The notes under the pieces are model-generated. The model saw nothing but the letters and a program-made list of their open reading frames with translations, was not told where the DNA came from and ran no database searches. Of a stretch of DNA of 37,941 nt, positions 1,850-26,501 are shown one piece after another; the first letter of the stretch is position 1; every line of letters starts with the position of its first letter. Source of the stretch: a virus; IMG/VR virus record IMGVR_UViG_3300044798_000675, positions 1 through 37,941 of that record, one strand, 5' to 3'. The position numbers were made by a program, and so were the translations under genes.

Positions 1850-2079
1850 AGGCCTCAAGCCAAAATTCTACGCCGGCGTTCGCGGCCGGCGATGACCTCA
1901 CCGTGCAACAGCTCGGGAAATGGGAAGCCTACGGCGGCCGGCTGCAGCCGTTTCTCTCATCGCTGCTTTTCAATGCCGGCGAGAGCGGGGCGCTGGTCGA
2001 TGAACTCCGGGCGCGCCAGCACGAACTCAGCATCCTTTTGCGGAGAGAACCAACCAACAACGGAGAAACCCATGTCTGA
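1846..2079 (+). CDS. Small helical hypothetical protein
   Basis: A 77-residue product starting at the ATG that overlaps the previous stop (1846-1849). Residues 18-68 are predicted helical (LTVQQLGKWEAYGGRLQPFL and ALVDELRARQHELSILLRR). No family is recognised. Its last eight bases overlap the start of the ParB-like gene, and its 3' end carries that gene's ribosome-binding region (GGAG just before 2072). Confidence 0.6.
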   Translation: MKASSQNSTPAFAAGDDLTVQQLGKWEAYGGRLQPFLSSLLFNAGESGALVDELRARQHELSILLRREPTNNGETHV

Positions 2080-4312
2080 GACAGCGACCCTCGAACCCCC
2101 GGTAGTCGAAACGACACCGGAATTGATCGTGAACAGATTCGACGCCGACGGCATCTGCCAAGATCCCGAAACCGTGAAGGTGCTCATGCCGAAGGGCTAC
2201 ACGTGCCTGCTCTACTTGGCCGTGGATCCTGATGGCGGATGGCGCCATGGCTGCGACTGCAGCGGGTCTAATGGCAAGGAGCCGCTCGCCAGCATGGCCC
2301 GACTCGAACGGCCGGCGTTCATAGACCGCAGGCAGGCGCTGCGCATGGCGATGCAGGAAGCTATGGACTATTTCGTCAAGAATCGGAAGGCGTCGAAGGC
2401 GGTCAAGGCGCTGGAGACCTTCTATGCGGCAAATCTCACGACGGAGGAAGGTTCGCCGGCAAACCTTTCGACAGACTCAGGGCAGGCACCCCCGGAAGGC
2501 ATGGAGACCGGGCCCGCGCGCGGTGAATTCGCCGAGATCCCGGTGGCGGCGATTTCGCCGAATCCCGCCAACCACCGGAAACACATCGATCCTGACGAAC
2601 TCGCGGCACTCGCCGAGAGCATCCGCCTCGAAGGGTTGCTCCAGCCGATCGCCGTGCGCGAACTACCGCACGAGGAGATGCCCGCTATAGCCGATGCCGC
2701 GCCGCCGGCGCCGCGCTACGAACTCATCCTCGGCGAGCGCCGCTGGCGCGCGCATGAATTGCTCAAGGCCGCATCGATCCAGGCGAAAGTTTACCGCAGC
2801 ATCAGCGCCGGGCGGGCGAAGGTGCTCGCCCTCATCGAAAATCTGCAACGGGTTAACCTCAATCCGATCGAGGAAGCCGAGGGCTATGCCGATCTGGCGG
2901 AGGAAGGCTTGCAACAGGACCAGATTGCAGAGCGCGTCGGCCGCAGCCGGCCGGCCGTGACCAATGCGCTGCGCCTGCTCAAACTGCCGGCAGAGGTCAT
3001 CGCCTATATTCGCACCGGGAAACTCACGCCGGCGCATGGCGTGGCGATCCTGCGGTTCGATGGCTGGCCGATCCATGAGCGGGTGATGGGCGATCTGGCG
3101 ATCCGGGACAAGGTCCGCGCCGGCGATATGGAGCGCGGCGTGCCATTCGCATATGAATTGGAACGCGAAGGCATCGCCGTGCAGATCCAGAACTGGCAGA
3201 GCCCATACAAGGTAACCGACAAGCTCAAGAAGCACCCGGCATATTTCTCGATGGGCGAGGGCGACTGGGCTTGCTTCGATCCCAAGCATTGGGCGGCCGA
3301 GTGCGAGGAACGCCAGCGCCAGGCGGCTCTGCGGGAAGAGGCGGCACAAAGGCGCCGCGAGGAGGAACTGGTGACGATGGCGAAGTCAAAAAAGAAGCAG
3401 CTCGTGCTCAACGAACTGGCGACGGCCACCTACCGGAAATTTGAGGACGACCAAGCCCCGCTCAATGAGCTACTGCCTGACGAGAAAAAGGCGGTGGCGA
3501 AGGATTTTGACGGGTCGCGGGTGACGATCGCGACCGATGTGGAGCTGGCGGACCGGCTCAAGGCCGCCTGGGGGCGGGTGATCAAGAAGGATCGGCGCGC
3601 CAAGGTGCCGGATCTCGAGGCCAGGGTGCGGAAGAAGATCGCGGCGCTCAAGAAAGTCGGGCCGCGGGAGATGGCCTGGCTCGTCTACCTGATCGCCACC
3701 CACGAAGGCCGTAACATCAATCTTGATCTCGACAGCGAGGCGGCGGACCGCGCCGGCGTGAAGCTGCCGAAGCTGCTCAAGGAACTCGAGGATCGCCAGT
3801 GTGGCGAATCGATCACGGCTTGGGAGGAACGGGAGAAGAAAAAACGCTCGATCTATCATGCCTTTGCCGCGATGGATGCGGCCGATCTCGTCAAGGTCCT
3901 GATGGAAGAGACCCTCCCGAAGGTCCTGGCTGAGCTGATCGAGCAGGGTCCGGACTGCATCGCCGCCACGATGCTCCGCTGGTGGCTCGATAGTGACACG
4001 CTCTGGCTTCTCGAGGAGACGGACGAAGGCAAGGCCGAGCTACTCGACCAGGTTAAAAACGCGCCGTGGTACAGGGCAGAATTCTCCAGCCCGCAGCCCG
4101 GCGACATCATCGAGTGGGAAAGCAACGGCGGGATGATTCAGGGCGTGGTCGTCACGATCGCCGAATACACCAAGGTAACAAAGGGGTCCTGGGACTGGAC
4201 TGACGCTACGCCAGTCAAGGCCACGAAGCCGAGCGAAGCAGGCGCCGCGGCCTACCATGTGATCGAAACCAAGGCGTTGAAGATCGTTGGCGACGGAGAG
4301 GAGGAGGCATGA
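2072..4312 (+). CDS. ParB-family CTPase/DNA-binding protein with long extra domains
   Basis: This 746-residue protein carries a ParB/Spo0J-type core. A ParB N-terminal domain begins near residue 152 (FAEIPVAAISPNPANHRK). It contains the CTP-binding GERRWRA box near 221 and the ENLQR-NLNPIEEA box near 256. A KorB-like helix-turn-helix follows (QIAERVGRSRPAVTNALRLL, about 283-302). About 150 residues of unrecognised sequence precede the core, and more than 350 follow it, including a Lys/Arg/Glu-rich stretch and a C-terminal beta-rich segment (GDIIEWESNGGMIQGVVVTI). Ordinary chromosomal ParB is about 300 residues. There is no ParA nearby, so classical partition is doubtful. Transcription control, DNA loading or genome protection are alternatives. 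I prefer the start at 2072 (GGAGAAACCC before it) to an upstream in-frame ATG whose extension is low-complexity. Confidence 0.85.
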   Translation: MSETATLEPPVVETTPELIVNRFDADGICQDPETVKVLMPKGYTCLLYLAVDPDGGWRHGCDCSGSNGKEPLASMARLERPAFIDRRQALRMAMQEAMDYFVKNRKASKAVKALETFYAANLTTEEGSPANLSTDSGQAPPEGMETGPARGEFAEIPVAAISPNPANHRKHIDPDELAALAESIRLEGLLQPIAVRELPHEEMPAIADAAPPAPRYELILGERRWRAHELLKAASIQAKVYRSISAGRAKVLALIENLQRVNLNPIEEAEGYADLAEEGLQQDQIAERVGRSRPAVTNALRLLKLPAEVIAYIRTGKLTPAHGVAILRFDGWPIHERVMGDLAIRDKVRAGDMERGVPFAYELEREGIAVQIQNWQSPYKVTDKLKKHPAYFSMGEGDWACFDPKHWAAECEERQRQAALREEAAQRRREEELVTMAKSKKKQLVLNELATATYRKFEDDQAPLNELLPDEKKAVAKDFDGSRVTIATDVELADRLKAAWGRVIKKDRRAKVPDLEARVRKKIAALKKVGPREMAWLVYLIATHEGRNINLDLDSEAADRAGVKLPKLLKELEDRQCGESITAWEEREKKKRSIYHAFAAMDAADLVKVLMEETLPKVLAELIEQGPDCIAATMLRWWLDSDTLWLLEETDEGKAELLDQVKNAPWYRAEFSSPQPGDIIEWESNGGMIQGVVVTIAEYTKVTKGSWDWTDATPVKATKPSEAGAAAYHVIETKALKIVGDGEEEA

Positions 4313-5151
4313 AGATCTACGTCGCGAGCAGTTGGCGGTGCGAATCTCAGCCCGGCGTGGTCCAGGCACTTCGCTCGGCGGGCCTCGAAGTCTATGATTT
4401 TCGTCACCCGGCGCCGGGCAATGACAGCTTTCATTGGTCGGACATCGATCCAAAATATGAGGCCTGGAGCGCACCTGAATACCGGCGGCTGCTGGATCAT
4501 CGGTTGGCGATGAAAGGCTATGCTCTCGATTTTTCCGCCATGGAGGCGGCTGAGGCCTGCGTCCTGGTGCTTCCCTGCGGCCGCAGCGCGCACCTGGAGG
4601 CCGGTTACTTTGTCGGCGCCGGCAAACCGCTCGTCATTTTGCTGAATCACAAGGTCGAGCCGGAGCTCATGTACAAGATGGCATACGGCATCGCCTGCAA
4701 TCTCAGCGAGGTCATCGAGTGCCTGGCAATCTACAAACTCAAGCGGCCGGCATTGCGGGATCAGATGGAACTGCTGGATGCGCTCCGTCAATCGCCTGGC
4801 GCAGTGCTCGCGCTTCGCGAGCGTTTGCGGCAGATCCGCGGCGAGGGCTTCACGCCGGCGCGGGACGATGAGACCTACCAGTTCAACGAACTGGCCATCG
4901 CCGGCGTCTGCTACGCCGATACGGCGATCGTACAGGCGGAACAGCTTCGTGCGCAGGGTGGAGTCCAACCCTTGCCACGGTTCTTCATCCATAACCGCTG
5001 GCCATGGAGCCGCGCTTGGTGGAAGCCGCGCGGCCTGGTCCGCAACCTCGAGCGCGCGTGCGCGCTACTGATCGCGGAACTCGACCGTGTATTGCGGCTG
5101 CTTGACAAGCTCGGGGCGGCCGCCGACGCCGGCGCGGAGGAGGACAAATAA
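4309..5151 (+). CDS. Nucleoside 2-deoxyribosyltransferase-like domain fused to a phage-specific domain
   Basis: The 280-residue product begins MKIYVASSWRCESQPGVVQA, the typical opening of phage deoxyribosyltransferase-like proteins. It has the conserved HLEAGYFVGAGKP segment, where the Glu (residue 97) corresponds to the catalytic nucleophile of that family. From about residue 165 a second domain begins (RLRQIRGEGFTPARDDETYQ, then WPWSRAWWKP and a C-terminal helix). It matches a phage domain I know only as conserved and uncharacterised. The likely role is nucleotide salvage or modification for phage DNA synthesis. The ATG overlaps the ParB-like stop (ATGA) and has GGAGGAGG upstream. Confidence 0.75.
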   Translation: MKIYVASSWRCESQPGVVQALRSAGLEVYDFRHPAPGNDSFHWSDIDPKYEAWSAPEYRRLLDHRLAMKGYALDFSAMEAAEACVLVLPCGRSAHLEAGYFVGAGKPLVILLNHKVEPELMYKMAYGIACNLSEVIECLAIYKLKRPALRDQMELLDALRQSPGAVLALRERLRQIRGEGFTPARDDETYQFNELAIAGVCYADTAIVQAEQLRAQGGVQPLPRFFIHNRWPWSRAWWKPRGLVRNLERACALLIAELDRVLRLLDKLGAAADAGAEEDK

Positions 5152-18775: not shown

Positions 18776-19975
18776 ATGCGCTCTCCCTTCCGCCGTCTCG
18801 CCAAAGTTTCCCTCTTCCAGCTCTTCCAGCTTGTCGCCGCGCTCACCGTGATCGTGGCCTACAAGCTGTTCAGCGCCTCGGGCCTGCCCATGGCGCCGCT
18901 CACGCTCTGTATCGATATGACCGCGCTCACCGACCTCTGGGTCCCCGAGATCCTCACCGAAGGTCTGCGCGAACCGGTGGTCGAAAAGACCGCCTTCATC
19001 GATTCCGGCGTCGTCGCCACCGACCAGCGCTTGGTCGAGGCCGCCTCCGGACCGGGCACGGAGGTCGAGATCCCGTTCATCATTGATCCCAATCACGAGG
19101 ATCAGCTCCAGAAGGAAGACACTGCGCCCGACATGAAGAAAATGACCTCGGGCAAGCAGCGCGCGGCCATCTTCAACCGCGTCTCGCCGCTCGGCGCGAC
19201 GGCCCTCTCGGGCATCATCTCCGGCATCAAACCCGGCGGCGACGTGCTCTCCGCGCTGCTTTCGGCCGTCCAGGGTCTGCGCAAACGCCAGCGCAACCGG
19301 CTGGTCATCGCCGCGCTCGCCGGCCTGTTCGATGTCACGACCACACCGGATAACGCCACTGGCGCCTTGAAAGCGCTGCGGCTCGACAAGTTCATCGAGG
19401 CCCCCGGTGCCTCCCCGCTTGCGACCTACCTCATCGATTCCTCGATGATGCTCCAGGCCCTCGCCCTTCTCGGCGAGAACAAGGAGGTGCTCACTGGCGG
19501 CGCCGTGCTCATGCATAGCACGATCGAGGCCTCGCTCACCGACCAGGACCAGATCGACGTGGTCCGCAATTCCGAGGGTGTGATCGTGCTCCGCCAATGG
19601 AAGGGCATGAAGGTCTTCCTGTCCGACAAGCTCATCCGCGCCGGCGTTACCAACGGCAATGTCTACTACACGCTCTTCTGCGGCCTCGGCTCCATCGCCA
19701 TGGGCGACAAACCCCAGGTGGTCACCGATCTTGCGGGCGAAGTCGCCGCGCTGCAGCTCGATCAGCGCGATGTCGCCAAGAACAACGTCGCCGTCTACGA
19801 CCGCACGCGGTTCATCTGCCACCCGCAGGGCGCCAAGTGGAATCCCGGCGAGGGCGTCCCCGCCGACACCGCCGCCGGTCCGACCAACGCCGAGCTCGCC
19901 GATGACGCCAACTGGGCGCTGGGCGCGGCCAACGTCAAGAATACGCGCATCGTCTGCCTGCGCACCAACGGCTGA
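18776..19975 (+). CDS. Major capsid protein (HK97-fold, putative)
   Basis: Up to 399 residues. The core from residue 39 (MAPLTLCIDMTALTDLWVPE) has the layout of phage coat proteins: TDLWVPEILTEGLRE, then a VEAASGPGTEVEIPFI strand region, KQRAAIFNR, a long helix (ALLSAVQGLRKRQRNRLVIA), and a late VFLSDKLIRAG strand. It forms the icosahedral shell. The start is uncertain. The ATG at 18776 has the pyrimidine-rich leader typical of these late genes but adds a strongly hydrophobic 38-residue stretch (FQLFQLVAALTVIVAYKLF). The ATG at 18890 begins at the conserved core. A protease-cleaved N-terminus would reconcile both. A strong hairpin follows the stop. Confidence 0.85.
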   Translation: MRSPFRRLAKVSLFQLFQLVAALTVIVAYKLFSASGLPMAPLTLCIDMTALTDLWVPEILTEGLREPVVEKTAFIDSGVVATDQRLVEAASGPGTEVEIPFIIDPNHEDQLQKEDTAPDMKKMTSGKQRAAIFNRVSPLGATALSGIISGIKPGGDVLSALLSAVQGLRKRQRNRLVIAALAGLFDVTTTPDNATGALKALRLDKFIEAPGASPLATYLIDSSMMLQALALLGENKEVLTGGAVLMHSTIEASLTDQDQIDVVRNSEGVIVLRQWKGMKVFLSDKLIRAGVTNGNVYYTLFCGLGSIAMGDKPQVVTDLAGEVAALQLDQRDVAKNNVAVYDRTRFICHPQGAKWNPGEGVPADTAAGPTNAELADDANWALGAANVKNTRIVCLRTNG

Positions 19976-20073: not shown

Positions 20074-20988
20074 ATGTCTTCCATTTCGCTTCCGCGCATC
20101 GCGACCGGTAAAACCGGCGCGCGCTCCCTCAACGTCGTCATCGCCGCGATCGAGGCCGCGCTCAATGGCGTCTTGCCGGATACGGTCATTATCGCCGGCG
20201 TCACCGGCCTCCAGGATGCCCTCGACCTGAAGGCGCCGCTCGCCTCGCCCGCCCTCACCGGCAATCCCACCGTCCCCACCCAGGCCGGCGGCAATAATTC
20301 CACCCGCGCCGCCAGCACCGCGTTCGTCGCCGCGGCCGTCGCCCCCCTCGCTCCCGCTGCCAGCCCGACCTTGACCGGCGTGCCCGCCGCACCCACCGCC
20401 GATCCTGGCACCAATACCACGCAGGTCGCCAGCACCGCCTTCGTCGCTGCGGCCATCGCGCCCCTTGCGCCCGCCGCCAATCCCACCCTGACCGGCGTGC
20501 CCGCCGCACCCACCGCCGTTCTTGGCACCAATACCACGCAGATCGCCACCACCGCCTTCATCAAGGCGGCGATCGATGCTCTCCTCGCCGGAGCCCCGGG
20601 CGCCCTCGACACCCTTCACGAGCTCGCCGATGCCCTCGGCGATGACGCCAGCTACGCGGCCACGATCACCAGTGCCCTCGCGCTCAAGGCGCCGCTGGCC
20701 AATCCCGCCTTGACCGGCACGCCAACCGCACCCACCGCGGATCCCGCGACCAACAGCACGCAGCTCGCCAGCACCGCTTTCGTCAAAATCGCCGCCGATG
20801 CCGCTGCGGCCGCCAGCCAGCCCAAGACCGGCAACATTTTCGCGGTGGCCACCCTTCCCGCCGCGGCCTCGAACGTCGGCCGTGTGGTCTATTGTTCCGA
20901 CGGCAACGCCGGCGCGCCCTGCGCCGCCATCTCCGACGGCACCCATTGGAAGGTCATCGCCCTCGGCGCCACCTGCGCGATCGAGTGA
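20074..20988 (+). CDS. Repeat-rich fibre protein, likely head fibre/decoration
   Basis: The 304-residue product holds four copies of a fibre repeat of the form ALTGxPxAPTAxxGTNTTQxASTAFV, beginning near residues 52, 89, 129 and 204. Between copies 3 and 4 lies a GALDTLHELADALGDD linker of the kind seen in tail fibres. The C-terminus (TLPAAASNVGRVVYCSDGNA to GTHWKVIALGATCAIE) is a small beta domain. Such repeats are known from tail fibres and from phi29-type head fibres. Its place directly behind the capsid, far from the tail-tip genes, favours a head fibre or capsid decoration. The repeats are Ala/Thr/Pro-rich. The leader before the ATG is pyrimidine-rich with no Shine-Dalgarno. Confidence 0.75.
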   Translation: MSSISLPRIATGKTGARSLNVVIAAIEAALNGVLPDTVIIAGVTGLQDALDLKAPLASPALTGNPTVPTQAGGNNSTRAASTAFVAAAVAPLAPAASPTLTGVPAAPTADPGTNTTQVASTAFVAAAIAPLAPAANPTLTGVPAAPTAVLGTNTTQIATTAFIKAAIDALLAGAPGALDTLHELADALGDDASYAATITSALALKAPLANPALTGTPTAPTADPATNSTQLASTAFVKIAADAAAAASQPKTGNIFAVATLPAAASNVGRVVYCSDGNAGAPCAAISDGTHWKVIALGATCAIE

Positions 20989-21803: not shown

Positions 21804-22463
21804 ATGGATTTCGACCATTCAGCCGCCAGAACCCAGATCGCCGGCATTATCGCCTATGCCGGCGTTCTCTTTTCTTTTGGCACGGTGCCATTCAAGGCTC
21901 TGGTCAACCCGGTCCCTTCAAGTGATGCCGCGATGTTTGGCGAAGGCGTCGATCGCGATCCCGGCGACGATATCATGGGCATGCTCACCGCCTTGGTGGC
22001 CGATTTCCCGTCCGGCCTTCCCCACCAGGGCGATGTGATCACCGATGCCGCCGGCGGCAGCCTGCGGATCCGCCGTGTCAACCAGCCCCCCGGTCTGCCC
22101 ACCGTCGTCTTATATTTCGCCAACCCGGTTCCCGCCACCTCGCCGGCGCCGCAACTCCTGTCGGCCACGATCGGGGCCGCCGGCCGGACGCTCACGTTCC
22201 TCTTCGACCGCATCGTCTCAATCGGCGCGGGCGGCAATGGCGGATTCGTGCTCACCCCCTCGGAGGATCCGGTCACCCTGGCCTACGAATCGGGCGCCGG
22301 CACGCCTGCGCTGGTCTACGTCATCAGCCGCGCCCTCCTGGCCGCCGAGACCGCCATCGTGGCCTATACGCAGCCAGGCGATGGGGTGGAGGACTCGGCC
22401 GGCGCCGATCTCGCGAGCCTTACCGGCAACGCCGTCGTCAACAATTCGGAGGAAACCGCATGA
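21804..22463 (+). CDS. Head-tail joining-type protein with C-terminal SwmB/Ig-like domain
   Basis: The 219-residue product has two parts. Residues 1-110 (VPFKALVNPVPSSDAAMFGE, then a beta-rich region with GDVITDAAGGSLRIRRV) resemble lambda FII-like or stopper proteins that join head to tail. Residues 115-218 form a SwmB/Ig-like domain, with ATIGAAGRTLTFLFDR early and AYTQPGDGVEDSAG near the end. By a hand, ungapped comparison it is about two thirds identical to the C-terminal domain of the major tail protein at 23832-24680. The appended domain probably lies on the virion surface. Its stop overlaps the next ATG. Confidence 0.7.
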   Translation: MDFDHSAARTQIAGIIAYAGVLFSFGTVPFKALVNPVPSSDAAMFGEGVDRDPGDDIMGMLTALVADFPSGLPHQGDVITDAAGGSLRIRRVNQPPGLPTVVLYFANPVPATSPAPQLLSATIGAAGRTLTFLFDRIVSIGAGGNGGFVLTPSEDPVTLAYESGAGTPALVYVISRALLAAETAIVAYTQPGDGVEDSAGADLASLTGNAVVNNSEETA

Positions 22464-22723
22464 CGCTCGAACTCAATATTTTGATCACCATTTTTACCGC
22501 CATCACGTTGGGCGTGCTCTCATGGATGGCTTGGAAGGTCCAGGAGATGTCCGCCACCGTGGCCACCATCGAGACCTCCTTGAAGTATGGTGAGGAGAAA
22601 TTCGTCAACCACGAGCGTGACCTGCTCGAGCTGCGCGCCCGCATCACCGCCTGCGAAATCGCCCTGGCGCAGTTCAAAATCACCTTGGGGAATAAAAACC
22701 ACCGCCCGAGTTCCGCCGGCTGA
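22460..22723 (+). CDS. Single-pass membrane protein with coiled coil
   Basis: The 87-residue product has one N-terminal transmembrane segment (about residues 6-26, NILITIFTAITLGVLSWMAW) and a cytoplasmic or periplasmic coil (HERDLLELRARITACEIALA). Its size and topology fit a small holin-like or spanin-like protein, but it lies among head-tail genes rather than in a lysis cassette. It has a good Shine-Dalgarno (GGAGG) and an ATGA overlap. Confidence 0.6.
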   Translation: MTLELNILITIFTAITLGVLSWMAWKVQEMSATVATIETSLKYGEEKFVNHERDLLELRARITACEIALAQFKITLGNKNHRPSSAG

Positions 22724-22729
22724 TCAACC

Positions 22730-23332
22730 ATGCCCGCCGCCAGCGACAACGCCAATCTTGCCGCCTTCATGGCCGCCTTCGACCAGTACCGCACCTGGTC
22801 GAAACGTGCGCTGGGTCCCATCCTCGAGGCCCGCGGCCGCGCGCTGCGCTGGGAGCTCTGGCGCCAGTTCAAGGCCATCGCCAAGACCGCCCGGGGATTG
22901 CACACGGAGATCGAGGATCTCGGCTACCGGATCCGCCGCCGCGTCGATCCCGCCACTGGCAAGGTACCACCCAATGCCGGTCCGGAGATCGCCCGCCGGA
23001 TCAAATCGCTGCGCTTTCTCTCCGTCAGTTTTCTCTACCGCGCCTGGCGCGCGGCCCGCGAGGGGCAGGAGGGCCGCTTTGCCTCGACCAGCCGCGCCAG
23101 CGCGCGGATCGGCGAGGCCATCATCCGCACCCGCGCCGGCCTCGACGATCCCATGGTCTCCCTCGCGTCGTTCCTCACCGGCGTCGTCATCCAGAACCGC
23201 GCCCATGGCATCGGCGACCGCGCCCTGCGCGCGCAAACGGCCGATATGCTGACCTATATCGCCCGCAAGCAGCGCGAGGACCTCGCCGCCTCCCTCGAGC
23301 GCGTCTTCACCCTTTCAATCGCCGCGCCATGA
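22730..23332 (+). CDS. Minor head-tail or tail completion protein (putative)
   Basis: A 200-residue, basic, helical protein (RTWSKRALGPILEARGRALR; GPEIARRIKSLRFLSVSFLY). In gene order it stands where HK97 gp10-like or tail completion proteins occur, between the stopper and terminator genes. No diagnostic motif is seen, so the assignment rests on position. It ends in an ATGA overlap with the next gene. Confidence 0.5.
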   Translation: MPAASDNANLAAFMAAFDQYRTWSKRALGPILEARGRALRWELWRQFKAIAKTARGLHTEIEDLGYRIRRRVDPATGKVPPNAGPEIARRIKSLRFLSVSFLYRAWRAAREGQEGRFASTSRASARIGEAIIRTRAGLDDPMVSLASFLTGVVIQNRAHGIGDRALRAQTADMLTYIARKQREDLAASLERVFTLSIAAP

Positions 23333-23778
23333 CGCCGACCCTTGACCAGGTGCTGCCCTCGACCCTCGCCTTGCTGGCTGCGAATCCGGCGCTCGTGGCT
23401 TTGCCGCGCATTGAGCAGAATGATCCCGATTATAACAAGAAGTTCGAGGGCGCCATGAAGACTCCCGGCATGGCGATCGTCGCCTGGCTGGCCGGCGGCC
23501 GTCCGGCCGACGGCAGTTCCCAGGACCAGCTCGCGCTCGACAACCTGGTGATCCTCTCCTTGGTCGAGAATCCGGCCAAGAACACCACCAGTCACGCCTG
23601 TTTTTACTGGGGGCTTCAGGTGCTCAAAACCCTTCACCGTGCCGGCCAGACCGCGCGCCGCGGCCTTCCGGCGATCCGCCATGATGATGAAACGGTCTAC
23701 GACCTCGGGCCGCTCCGCACCGGCCTCGTCATGTATTTTTTCAACTTCCGCGTGCGTTCAATCGATCCGCTGGCCTGA
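23329..23778 (+). CDS. Tail terminator-like protein (putative)
   Basis: A 149-residue alpha/beta protein (helix LPSTLALLAANPALVALPRI, then strands MAIVAWLAGGRP and LVILSLVENPAK, and an end MYFFNFRVRSIDPLA). The pattern and place just before the major tail protein fit the tail terminator of siphophages, which caps the tail tube. The call is by synteny. Confidence 0.55.
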   Translation: MTPTLDQVLPSTLALLAANPALVALPRIEQNDPDYNKKFEGAMKTPGMAIVAWLAGGRPADGSSQDQLALDNLVILSLVENPAKNTTSHACFYWGLQVLKTLHRAGQTARRGLPAIRHDDETVYDLGPLRTGLVMYFFNFRVRSIDPLA

Positions 23779-23831
23779 CGTTCGCCGGCAAACCTTTTTT
23801 CCACCGTCAACCTCCCTGAAAGGAACCTCCC

Positions 23832-24680
23832 ATGAGCTATAAGATCCTCGCCGGCCAAGGCCGGATTTTCCGCAGCGGCGCCGCCTTCACGGTGCCCACC
23901 GCCGGCACCGCCGGCCAGAACAGCCTCCCGGGCGCCGCCGATGGCGGCTGGGGGGATCTCGGTCACATCGATCTCGTCTTGAGCCCGAAAGTCGCCAAGG
24001 AGGAGATCGTGGGCGCGCCGGCCGGCAAGGGCCGCCGCCAGATCCGCAAGGTGCTGGTCACCCAGCGCGATCTCTCCGCCAAAATCACCCTCCACGAGCT
24101 GCTCACGCTCATCTTCGAGCTGATTTTCGGCTGCACCATCACGCCGGGTGTCGCCTACAGCCCGAACTCGGCCCGCGGCATCGAGGCCTGGATCGAACTC
24201 AAGGAATATGATGACGATGACGTGCTCGTGAACACGCATTACCATTACGTATTTCTCAATCCGCCCTCGGACGTGAAGCTCGACGAGAAGCACGTGCAGT
24301 GCGAGGTGGAAGCCCAGGTGCTGCCCTCCACCGTGTCCACCGGTACGCTCGTCCCCGCGACGGAGGCGCCGCAGCTCGTCGCGGCCACGATTGGCGAAAC
24401 CGGCCAGACCCTCGCACTCGTCTTCGACCGCATCATCTCGATCGGCGAGGGCGGCAATGCCGGCTGGGTCCTCACGCCGTCGGGCGCGGCCGCCACGCTG
24501 GCCTACGAGTCGGGTGCCGGCACCACCGCGCTGCTCTATGTCATCAGCCGTGCGATCCTCGGATCCGAGACCGCCACCTTGGACTACACGCAGCCGACTG
24601 ACGGCGTCGAGATCCCGGGAGGCATCGATCTCGCCAGCATTGCCGACCGGTCCGTCGTCAACAATTCGGCGGCCGCCTGA
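23832..24680 (+). CDS. Major tail (tube) protein with C-terminal SwmB/Ig-like domain
   Basis: A 282-residue protein. Residues 1-175 have a tail-tube pattern (LAGQGRIFRSGAAFTVP; GDLGHIDLVLSPKVAKEEIV; ITLHELLTLIFELIFG). Residues 178-281 are a second copy of the SwmB/Ig-like domain found in the protein at 21804-22463. Ig-like C-terminal extensions on tail-tube proteins are known (as in lambda gpV), where they decorate the tail. The gene has its own leader with AAGGAA before the ATG and is followed by a strong hairpin, as fits an abundant product. Confidence 0.75.
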   Translation: MSYKILAGQGRIFRSGAAFTVPTAGTAGQNSLPGAADGGWGDLGHIDLVLSPKVAKEEIVGAPAGKGRRQIRKVLVTQRDLSAKITLHELLTLIFELIFGCTITPGVAYSPNSARGIEAWIELKEYDDDDVLVNTHYHYVFLNPPSDVKLDEKHVQCEVEAQVLPSTVSTGTLVPATEAPQLVAATIGETGQTLALVFDRIISIGEGGNAGWVLTPSGAAATLAYESGAGTTALLYVISRAILGSETATLDYTQPTDGVEIPGGIDLASIADRSVVNNSAAA

Positions 24681-24748: not shown

Positions 24749-25795
24749 ATGAAATCGATCCGGCTCACCATCACCCTGCTGTCGGCCCTCCTCTGCGGCG
24801 CCACCTGCCAGAGAACGCCGACGGTTGTGGCGCCCGCTGGACCAATGCAGGTCCAGTTGGACGATACCTACAAGCAGCAGATCGCCGGTCTCAAGGCCGA
24901 ACTCGAGGCGGGTTACAAGGTCTCCCTCAATGCCTCCGGCAAGGTTTACGGGACCGGCAAGGCCCTTGAATTCGTCACGGAGTCGCCTGGCAAGGATGCG
25001 GCCGTGGCCGAGAACAATCTCGCCAAGGAAGTGCTGCCGCCACCGACGCCCGAGGACCAGTTGGCGGCCGAGAAGCGCGTCAACGCCATCATCACCGGGC
25101 AACTCGATGAGGCCAAGAAGCTCTATGGCCAGGCGCTCGATGAGGGAAAGGCGCTCAAGAGCAGGATCGATACCCTGAAAACGGATAACGATGCCTTGAC
25201 CGGAAAGATTGCGTCGCTCGAGACGGCCCGGAACCAGGAACGCGAGCAGCACGCGAATGACATGAGAGACGCGCTGGCGAAAAAGGACCAGGAGATCACC
25301 GACCTCAAGGCGTCATGGTCCAAGAATCTCCAGCTCTGGGCGGCCTATGGCTGCGTCGGGATCGGCGGGATCTTCCTATTGATCGCCGCCCTGTTCATCT
25401 GGTCCGCCTTTTCCTCGGGTGGTCTGTTGGCGGCGCGGCGGGCCATTCCCGCCGTCGCGGTGGGTCTGATGTTCATCGGCTGCGGCTTCATTGTTTCCAA
25501 GCCGTGGTTTCTCTGGGCGGTGGGCATAGCGGGCGCATGCGCCGTGGTCGCCGGCATCATTTTGTGGATTCACTTCCGGCGCACGGGCGAACTCGAAACC
25601 AAGAAGCGCCAGGCCATCCAGGACCTCAAGGACGAGGCGACCGCCGGGGTTCCGGCGGCGAAGGCGGCCTGGGAGCAGCTCGTCCAGCATCTCACCTACC
25701 GCTTTCCCAAGAATGCCGATGGTTCCAAGGGCACGCTGGAGAAGGAACAGGACAAACGCCTTGTATCCGAGGGCGTCAATGCAACCGCGAAATAA
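24749..25795 (+). CDS. Multi-pass membrane protein with coiled coil, in the tail module
   Basis: The 348-residue protein begins with a signal-like segment (MKSIRLTITLLSALLCGATC), possibly a non-standard lipobox around Cys20. A long coiled-coil region follows (about residues 90-190; LKSRIDTLKTDNDALTGKIA). Three transmembrane segments then run from about residue 195 to 275 (AAYGCVGIGGIFLLIAALFI, IPAVAVGLMFIGCGFIVS, WFLWAVGIAGACAVVAGIIL), with a charged cytoplasmic tail last. No family is recognised. A membrane protein in the middle of tail genes could act in lysis (holin/spanin-like), superinfection exclusion or DNA entry. Its start is preceded by the hairpin at 24713. Confidence 0.65.
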   Translation: MKSIRLTITLLSALLCGATCQRTPTVVAPAGPMQVQLDDTYKQQIAGLKAELEAGYKVSLNASGKVYGTGKALEFVTESPGKDAAVAENNLAKEVLPPPTPEDQLAAEKRVNAIITGQLDEAKKLYGQALDEGKALKSRIDTLKTDNDALTGKIASLETARNQEREQHANDMRDALAKKDQEITDLKASWSKNLQLWAAYGCVGIGGIFLLIAALFIWSAFSSGGLLAARRAIPAVAVGLMFIGCGFIVSKPWFLWAVGIAGACAVVAGIILWIHFRRTGELETKKRQAIQDLKDEATAGVPAAKAAWEQLVQHLTYRFPKNADGSKGTLEKEQDKRLVSEGVNATAK

Positions 25796-25821: not shown

Positions 25822-26325
25822 ATGTCTATTGCCCTGCTCAACGCCGTGCCATTCGAGGTCACCTATCTCGACGGCCGCAAGGAAACCCTCAAGATCGGCG
25901 AGCTGCCCATCCGGGCCCTCTATGAGTTCATCGAGTTCGTCAGGCGCAGCCAGACGCCCGAACTCGTGGCCCTCTGCGCCGGGAAGCCGCCCGAGTGGAT
26001 CGATCTGCTCAAACTCGAATCCTACGGCGCCCTGGCGGAGCAGTGCATCAAGCTAAATTTTCAGCGGGCGATGACGCTGGTCGAGAAGGACCCCGTCGTC
26101 GCCTCCGCCATGGCGCAGATTCTCATCGGGACGATCAACTTCGCCACCAGCATGGGTACGATCGATCCGAAAACGCTCGAGGCCCTGAAAGCCCTGGACG
26201 CGGCCGCGACCCGAAAATCGGAGAAGACCTCATCGCCCGCGCCCGCCGAAAGCGCGCCGAGCTCGAGCGCACCGTCACCCGCGCCTGCTGCCTCGGCATC
26301 GCCGGCGGCCACTGGGAGCGGGTGA
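25822..26325 (+). CDS. Tail assembly chaperone, short form
   Basis: A 167-residue product starting MSIALLNAVPFEVTYLDGRK, a beta N-terminus followed by helices (ELPIRALYEFIEFVRRSQTP; AMAQILIGTINFATSMGTID). After residue 131 it turns into a Ser/Ala/Pro-rich tail typical of a read-on frame. By position (between major tail and tape measure) and form it matches gpG-like chaperones that coat the tape measure during tail assembly. A second frame begins within it and continues to 26501. Confidence 0.7.
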   Translation: MSIALLNAVPFEVTYLDGRKETLKIGELPIRALYEFIEFVRRSQTPELVALCAGKPPEWIDLLKLESYGALAEQCIKLNFQRAMTLVEKDPVVASAMAQILIGTINFATSMGTIDPKTLEALKALDAAATRKSEKTSSPAPAESAPSSSAPSPAPAASASPAATGSG

Positions 26326-26501
26326 TCGCCCTCACCCCCAGCCGGCTGCGTCTGCTCATGGCCGAGGCCGAACGCATGTTTGCCGAAAAACAACTGGCCG
26401 TTCTGTTCGCCGTGAATCACGGCATGGCCGGCGGCGATGACTGCGAGAAATACGCCGACAAGCTCAAGAGACAGATCGGCGAGACTTCAGATACCCCTTA
26501 A
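25822..26501 (+). CDS. Tail assembly chaperone, long form by predicted -1 frameshift
   Basis: The -1 frame is well formed from about 26217 (IGEDLIARARRKRAELERTV, then LTPSRLRLLMAEAERMFAEK) to TAA at 26499-26501. It has no good start of its own. Upstream of 26211 that frame looks non-coding. A slip on the AAAA run at 26214-26217 (codons CGA-AAA-TCG re-read as AAA-ATC) would join the 132 residues before it to 94 after it, giving about 226 residues, as in the gpG/gpGT pair of lambda. The slip site is not a canonical double-slip heptamer, so the exact shift point is inferred. Confidence 0.6.

Follow-up and report, generated by a model that had tools for sequence, protein, structure and literature searches.

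The window analysed here is the whole of IMG/VR virus record IMGVR_UViG_3300044798_000675 (37,941 bases), whose structural gene module, on the + strand, is that of a siphophage. Within this module we find two open reading frames, at 21804-22463 and 23832-24680, both confirmed at these positions, whose products end in copies of the same domain. BLASTP between the two proteins gives 71/107 identical residues (66%) with one gap (132 bits, E 2e-42), and the gap-free core, residues 115-215 of the first protein against 179-279 of the second, is identical at 67 of 101 positions, so that a count by hand in an earlier note on this DNA, about two thirds identity over some 104 C-terminal residues, is accurate. 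Over 303 nt of core DNA the copies agree at 75.9% of positions, as against 30% and 28% in the 90-nt flanks beyond the two edges, giving sharp borders. Smith-Waterman alignment of the full-length proteins scores 340 (shuffle mean 37.1, maximum 66 in 1000 shuffles), and that of the two N-terminal parts scores 23, below the shuffle mean of 27.6; the N-terminal parts are thus unrelated by sequence, as the earlier note also held. The record contains exactly two copies, with no third found in a single-sequence search or with a 10-row profile run to an E limit of 10.

The second carrier can be assigned from its sequence as the tail tube protein. Two families match within its N-terminal 176 residues: PF25681 (Phage_TTP_17), over residues 5-102, with E 4.7e-5 and 23.6 bits (below the curated cut-off, 27), and the major tail protein family phrog_117, with E 5.2e-4; the tape measure gene (26513) lies a short way downstream. 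Because position and phrog_117 agree while the Phage_TTP_17 score stays under its cut-off, we file it as a tube protein and not as a member of Phage_TTP_17. The domain is therefore an accessory domain fused to the C-terminus of a virion structural protein.

The first carrier is quite probably the head-closure protein, as judged from gene order, size and position. The lambda genes FII, Z, U and V encode proteins of 117, 192, 131 and 246 aa, and the Bxb1 order is head closure, neck/tail completion, terminator and tail protein; the window, leaving aside a small membrane-type protein at 22460, gives ~108+111, 200, 149 and ~173+109 aa. The gene at 21804 fits the slot between the head protein and the tail-completion, terminator and tube genes, where the middle-slot neighbours are also without family assignment. 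By sequence or profile it does not join the gpFII/gp16-type head-closure proteins, so the label "head-tail joining-type" given to it earlier stands on order, size and position and lacks a family match. There is a smaller chance that this is another virion or accessory protein occupying the head-closure slot: its N-terminal part has no family, PDB or phage match, and more proteins without family assignment lie just upstream, but order and sizes agree with lambda FII-Z-U-V and with the Bxb1 head-closure-to-tail order. Relatives of lambda gpFII were tried as a profile for this N-terminal part and rejected as too narrow, nearly all of the 100 records coming from close lambdoid phages.

Table 1. 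Features of the structural module in the window, with positions counted from its first base
Feature	Position	Strand	Basis or remark
Terminase small subunit candidate	12268 (start)	+	Gene in structural module
Terminase large subunit	13418 (start)	+	Structural module
Lambda-family portal	15943 (start)	+	Structural module
Major head protein, SPP1 gp13-like	18776..19975	+	phrog_247 E 4.9e-42; tblastn to SPP1 coat protein; head-end anchor of module
219-aa protein in head-closure (stopper) gene slot, domain at C-terminus	21804..22463	+	Slot from order and size against lambda and Bxb1
Linker VPATSP	22128..22145	+	Common to copy 2 apart from a one-residue indel (BLASTP)
Domain copy 1, residues 115-215	22146..22448	+	BLASTP, DNA comparison, profile E 5.4e-43
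200-aa protein in neck/tail-completion (lambda Z) slot	22730..23332	+	Order and size only (lambda Z 192 aa)
149-aa protein in tail-terminator (lambda U) slot	23329..23778	+	Order and size only (lambda U 131 aa)
Major tail (tube) protein, 282 aa, domain at C-terminus	23832..24680	+	N-terminal matches to PF25681 and phrog_117
Linker VPATE	24351..24365	+	Counterpart of VPATSP (BLASTP)
Domain copy 2, residues 179-279	24366..24668	+	BLASTP, DNA comparison, profile E 6.3e-41
Tape measure protein, 878 aa	26513..29149	+	phrog_8462 E 1.6e-17; tail-end anchor of module

Relatives of the domain are found in 11 other records: Marinobacter phages PS3 and PS6, eight IMG/VR contigs (L003, L004, L005, L008, L009, L010, L011 and L013) and one contig of a Desulfococcus metagenome-assembled genome (L017), that is, ten phage or viral records and one prophage contig. 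In L017 the carrier has a Neck1 gene on one side and a tail sheath gene on the other, which marks this contig as a contractile-tail prophage or phage, and PHROG matches place terminase or head-protein genes near the domain in L003, L005, L008 and L010 too. The domain makes up nearly the whole of two small proteins, in L005 (133 aa) and L008 (143 aa), and is internal to proteins of 662-1045 residues in PS3, PS6, L009, L010, L011, L013 and L017; the L009 and L013 carriers match tail-fibre or tail-assembly PHROGs, and the PS3/PS6 carrier is phrog_30287, of ~730 residues, matched by the two window proteins with E 1.4e-13 and 1.5e-8. Since it stands alone or within long proteins of other phages, the domain is, on this sequence evidence, a separate module that moves among unrelated phage proteins, and the proposal that it is not an integral part of the two folds is upheld as far as sequence can tell. 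Four further loci are the same places as ones already listed and were dropped before counting (L014, L015 and L016 equal L003, L004 and L005; L018 equals L011), and L012 is the opposite end of the L011 contig. Of the weak matches, the second one in L005 (E 1.1e-5) entered A1 and A5 alone and the partial one in PS6 (E 0.005) was left unused; L017, found after the A3 profile was built, is in the tree only.

Several of these relatives have peculiarities of their own. The two ends of contig IMGVR_UViG_3300028883_000049 (L011 and L012) are identical over at least 3916 bases that take in the region of the domain-bearing gene; this may reflect a terminal repeat, a duplication or an artefact of assembly. 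The matches at L003:3355-3528 and L004:55-228 cover no more than the C-terminal half of the domain and close a short open reading frame directly preceding a fibre-like gene; the copy there may be decaying or have been split. By eye, the L009, L011, L013 and L017 carriers start with a secretion-signal-like stretch, which is odd for virion proteins.

Through these relatives, sequence comparison points to the window domain being a divergent relative of the SWM/Big_5 (Ig-like) domains and not a SWM_repeat member by Pfam's rule. SWM repeats are known in tandem in cell-surface proteins. Seven of the ten members of the A3 profile match SWM_repeat in Pfam (best E 1e-4) and three match Big_5 (best E 1.7e-4), and five of ten match swm_rep_I (TIGR02059) in NCBIfam. 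A second Pfam scan, of eight phage domains, one cellular domain and one long phage protein, gives SWM_repeat scores of 13.4-19.7 bits for five phage relatives, all below the cut-off of 27, and no SWM_repeat match for the tube copy, L013 or L017. The A3 profile also finds a cellular SWM repeat in L033 (genome G161) with E 2.9e-10 over 1-101, a domain that itself exceeds the cut-offs of both SWM_repeat (46.2 bits against 27) and Big_5 (31.9 against 23.6); the same repeat is reached by the window-led profile A2 (E 2.4e-5, probability 75.5) and by domain copy 1 alone (E 4e-9), both being single-comparison E-values. The window copies are thus homologous at the profile level to a canonical member while staying short of the SWM_repeat cut-off. 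Length and motif layout are similar to those of SWM_repeat (PF13753) and swm_rep_I, which the relatives match weakly, but the repeats there are in tandem (L033 being the one cellular example), whereas here there is one copy per protein and two per record, without the tandem arrangement in a surface protein that is typical of SWM_repeat. The SwmB/Ig-like identity put forward earlier therefore holds as a kinship traced through relatives and fails as a direct assignment.

We propose, as an account that is on balance probable, that this siphophage carries a duplicated accessory domain, shown on its tail tube and (probably) its neck and serving weak adhesion. One structural protein would first have gained a domain copy at its C-terminus, joined by a VPAT linker; duplication would then have placed the linker-domain segment ~2.2 kb away, at the C-terminus of another. 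As expected from lambda-type architecture, the tail tube and (probably) the neck would show the same domain outwards, outside the tube wall; by analogy with Ig-like decorations of other phages, the domain would then touch surface polymers, those of the host or of its surroundings, through many weak contacts and so keep the particle near the cell until the tail tip binds. The tape measure protein of lambda has 853 residues, close to the 878 found here. Taken with the lambda rings, one hexameric ring for head closure and 32 hexameric rings in the tube (PMC10721106), this similarity leads us to infer six neck copies and ~200 tube copies.

An adhesion role is plausible by analogy. Ig-like domains on tubes point outward, with a function described as mostly unproven (PMC9022992), and isolated Ig-like domains of the capsid and tube proteins of mycobacteriophage Douge bound host surface glycans (PMC13033339); nothing in the evidence points to mucus in particular. 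We favour weak adhesion, as part of the account above that we hold as a whole to be on balance probable, over a structural role in which the domains brace neck and tube via mutual or neighbour-ring contacts and outside binding is secondary or absent, a reading that we consider unlikely. Bracing draws on lambda gpV, whose Ig-like domains along the tube touch their neighbours and whose removal lowers activity ~100-fold (PMC8718954), on the Ig-like domain of the roseophage R4C neck, interpreted as stabilising (PMC10276861), and on the fact that the two window copies have been kept alike (66% aa). It accords poorly with the terminator-slot protein between neck and tube, which has no domain copy, with the persistence of the same domain in unrelated long fibre-like proteins of other phages, and with SPP1 virions, which are viable without the extra tube domain (PMC8718954).

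The origin of the two copies was addressed with a 12-row tree, which omits L004 as a near-copy of L003 and in which the window copies are sisters (support 85/93, and 86% of 200 bootstrap trees). They are 66% identical to each other vs 53-55% to the nearest full-length relative (L008), and since each is the other's closest kin, a duplication of the domain inside this phage lineage appears likely from sequence. The earlier claim that one phage copied the domain onto two proteins of its virion module is thus the most likely history, in view of the sister relationship, the sharp DNA edges and the 67/101 identity. It is improbable that the two genes gained the domain independently from other phages with no duplication in the lineage; the domain is spread over unrelated phage proteins and its close relatives are thinly sampled, which would allow such a history, but no full-length relative found is as close to either copy as the other copy is, and the two have the VPAT linker in common. 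Between the copies, dN is 0.21-0.25 and dS 0.53-0.63 by two methods (dN/dS ~0.4), which argues that the duplication is not recent and that the protein sequence has been held by selection. Identity between the DNA copies is 0.65-0.82 in 60-nt steps across the domain, with no near-identical tract at this resolution and thus no sign of recent gene conversion, so the recombination between copies that the earlier note suggested looking for did not appear. It is very improbable that mosaic exchange left the copies behind as neutral remnants, or that they act solely as recombination handles, even with Ig-like domains described as moving by non-homologous recombination (PMC5009743), because the dN/dS ratio indicates constraint and looping out between the copies would delete the intervening genes.

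As to where the domain came from, another phage is the more likely near source than a bacterial surface gene, since the close relatives lie in the ten phage or viral records and one prophage named above and the cellular one is remote. In genome contigs, A2 confirmed 0 of 229 pattern matches and A4 confirmed 1 of 402, the prophage contig L017, and the L010 domain had no match in plasmids or annotated phages; peptide-pattern searches overlook diverged relatives, and these negatives are no proof that a cellular source is absent. Among 395 genomes of one phylum there are two matches, a prophage genome and the one remote cellular SWM-repeat protein (L033). A direct origin from a cell-surface protein, as the earlier note had it, is therefore not borne out.

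Several results weigh against the account of a duplicated, displayed SWM-type domain. In the HMM search put forward earlier as a check, neither window copy alone matches a Pfam model at E up to 10, and a PF13753 search of the whole record returns nothing. AlphaFold2 single-sequence models of the two proteins have mean pLDDT of 31.8 and 32.1, unusably low. The N-terminal 111 aa of the 21804 protein match nothing in Pfam, PHROG or PDB sequences, or in 50,697 phage records, and no tube or head-closure protein was recognised among the carriers of the other 11 records. The sister pair has moderate support (85/93, not starred), and for the neck-adaptor Ig-like domain of R4C a part in adsorption was considered improbable and a link to local stability was drawn (PMC10276861).

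The window module also holds further tail proteins. Of the two proteins in the middle slots, that at 22730..23332 has no PHROG match, and that at 23329..23778 has no family match in Pfam or PHROGs and, as noted above, no domain copy. Among viral contigs, no relative was confirmed for the major head protein or for the N-terminal part of either window carrier, and the phage thus has no close relative in the sets searched. Directly after the major head protein gene, 20074-20988 encodes a 304-aa protein of ~39-residue tail-fibre-type repeats (phrog_454 E 1.2e-57), which lies far from the tail-tip genes and could be a head fibre. Two membrane-type proteins, at 22460-22723 and 24749-25795, break up the neck and tail genes, with hydrophobic stretches at ~residues 1-25 and between ~194 and 277, respectively; the second in addition gives weak matches of coiled-coil type and to Rz-like spanins, and both are possibly lysis genes inside the structural module. 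Ahead of the tape measure gene, 25822-26501 holds two overlapping open reading frames in different frames, the first of which weakly matches a tail assembly chaperone (E 0.073), in a layout resembling frameshifted chaperone pairs. Elsewhere, 1892-5151 encodes a large ParB-domain protein (806 aa) and, after it, a protein that matches a nucleoside deoxyribosyltransferase PHROG (E 1e-49).

The principle of one surface domain on two virion proteins is already known. In the mycobacteriophages LeBron, Wildcat and Bxb1, the major capsid protein and the major tail protein end in a common C-terminal extension, which in LeBron and Wildcat is Ig-like (PMC3029335); recomputed here, the Bxb1 extensions are identical at 35/85 positions (E 3e-16). 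The partners there are capsid and tail, whereas here they are tail and (by position) head closure, the sequence family is another, and the window copies are more alike (66% vs 41% in Bxb1). In-frame accessory domains at the tube protein C-terminus are also described for lambda gpV, T5 pb6, YSD1 and SPP1 gp17.1* (PMC9022992, PMC8718954), but the siphophage tube domains reported are Big_1, Big_2, I-set or FN3 (PMC9022992), whereas the families nearest to the window domain are SWM_repeat/Big_5. That review lists five carrier classes for phage Ig-like domains, with head closure not among them (PMC9022992). The R4C neck adaptor likewise bears an Ig-like domain outside the usual phage Ig families, which is N-terminal there and C-terminal on the head-closure-slot protein here, and the portion of that report available mentions no second copy on the tube (PMC10276861). 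The PS3 and PS6 protein phrog_30287 carries the same domain, but internally, with other regions flanking it, and SWM_repeat is named among the domains of contractile-injection-system fibres (PMC12923769). Listeria phage PSA was rejected as a precedent, its frameshift extensions being too short for this domain by their annotated coordinates. Within the literature excerpts covered, neither a head-closure protein with a C-terminal Ig-like domain nor a SWM-type domain on a tube was found.

What is new is the apparent head-closure carrier and the SWM-type domain, in what amounts to an uncommon variant of the phage habit of decorating particles with immunoglobulin-like domains. The SWM/Big_5-like domain adds a further sequence family to the Ig-like domains on phage tubes, and its first carrier suggests that head-closure proteins can also bear such domains. 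A bolder and doubtful possibility is that the head-closure ring and every tube ring display the same SWM-type domain as a neck-to-tail particle coat, for concerted weak adhesion or for domain-domain contacts along the tail; if true, a domain family known from cell-surface repeats would have been turned into a particle coat. Sister copies on different rings, in different places and at about six vs ~200 copies, would provide an internal control for what phage surface domains do.

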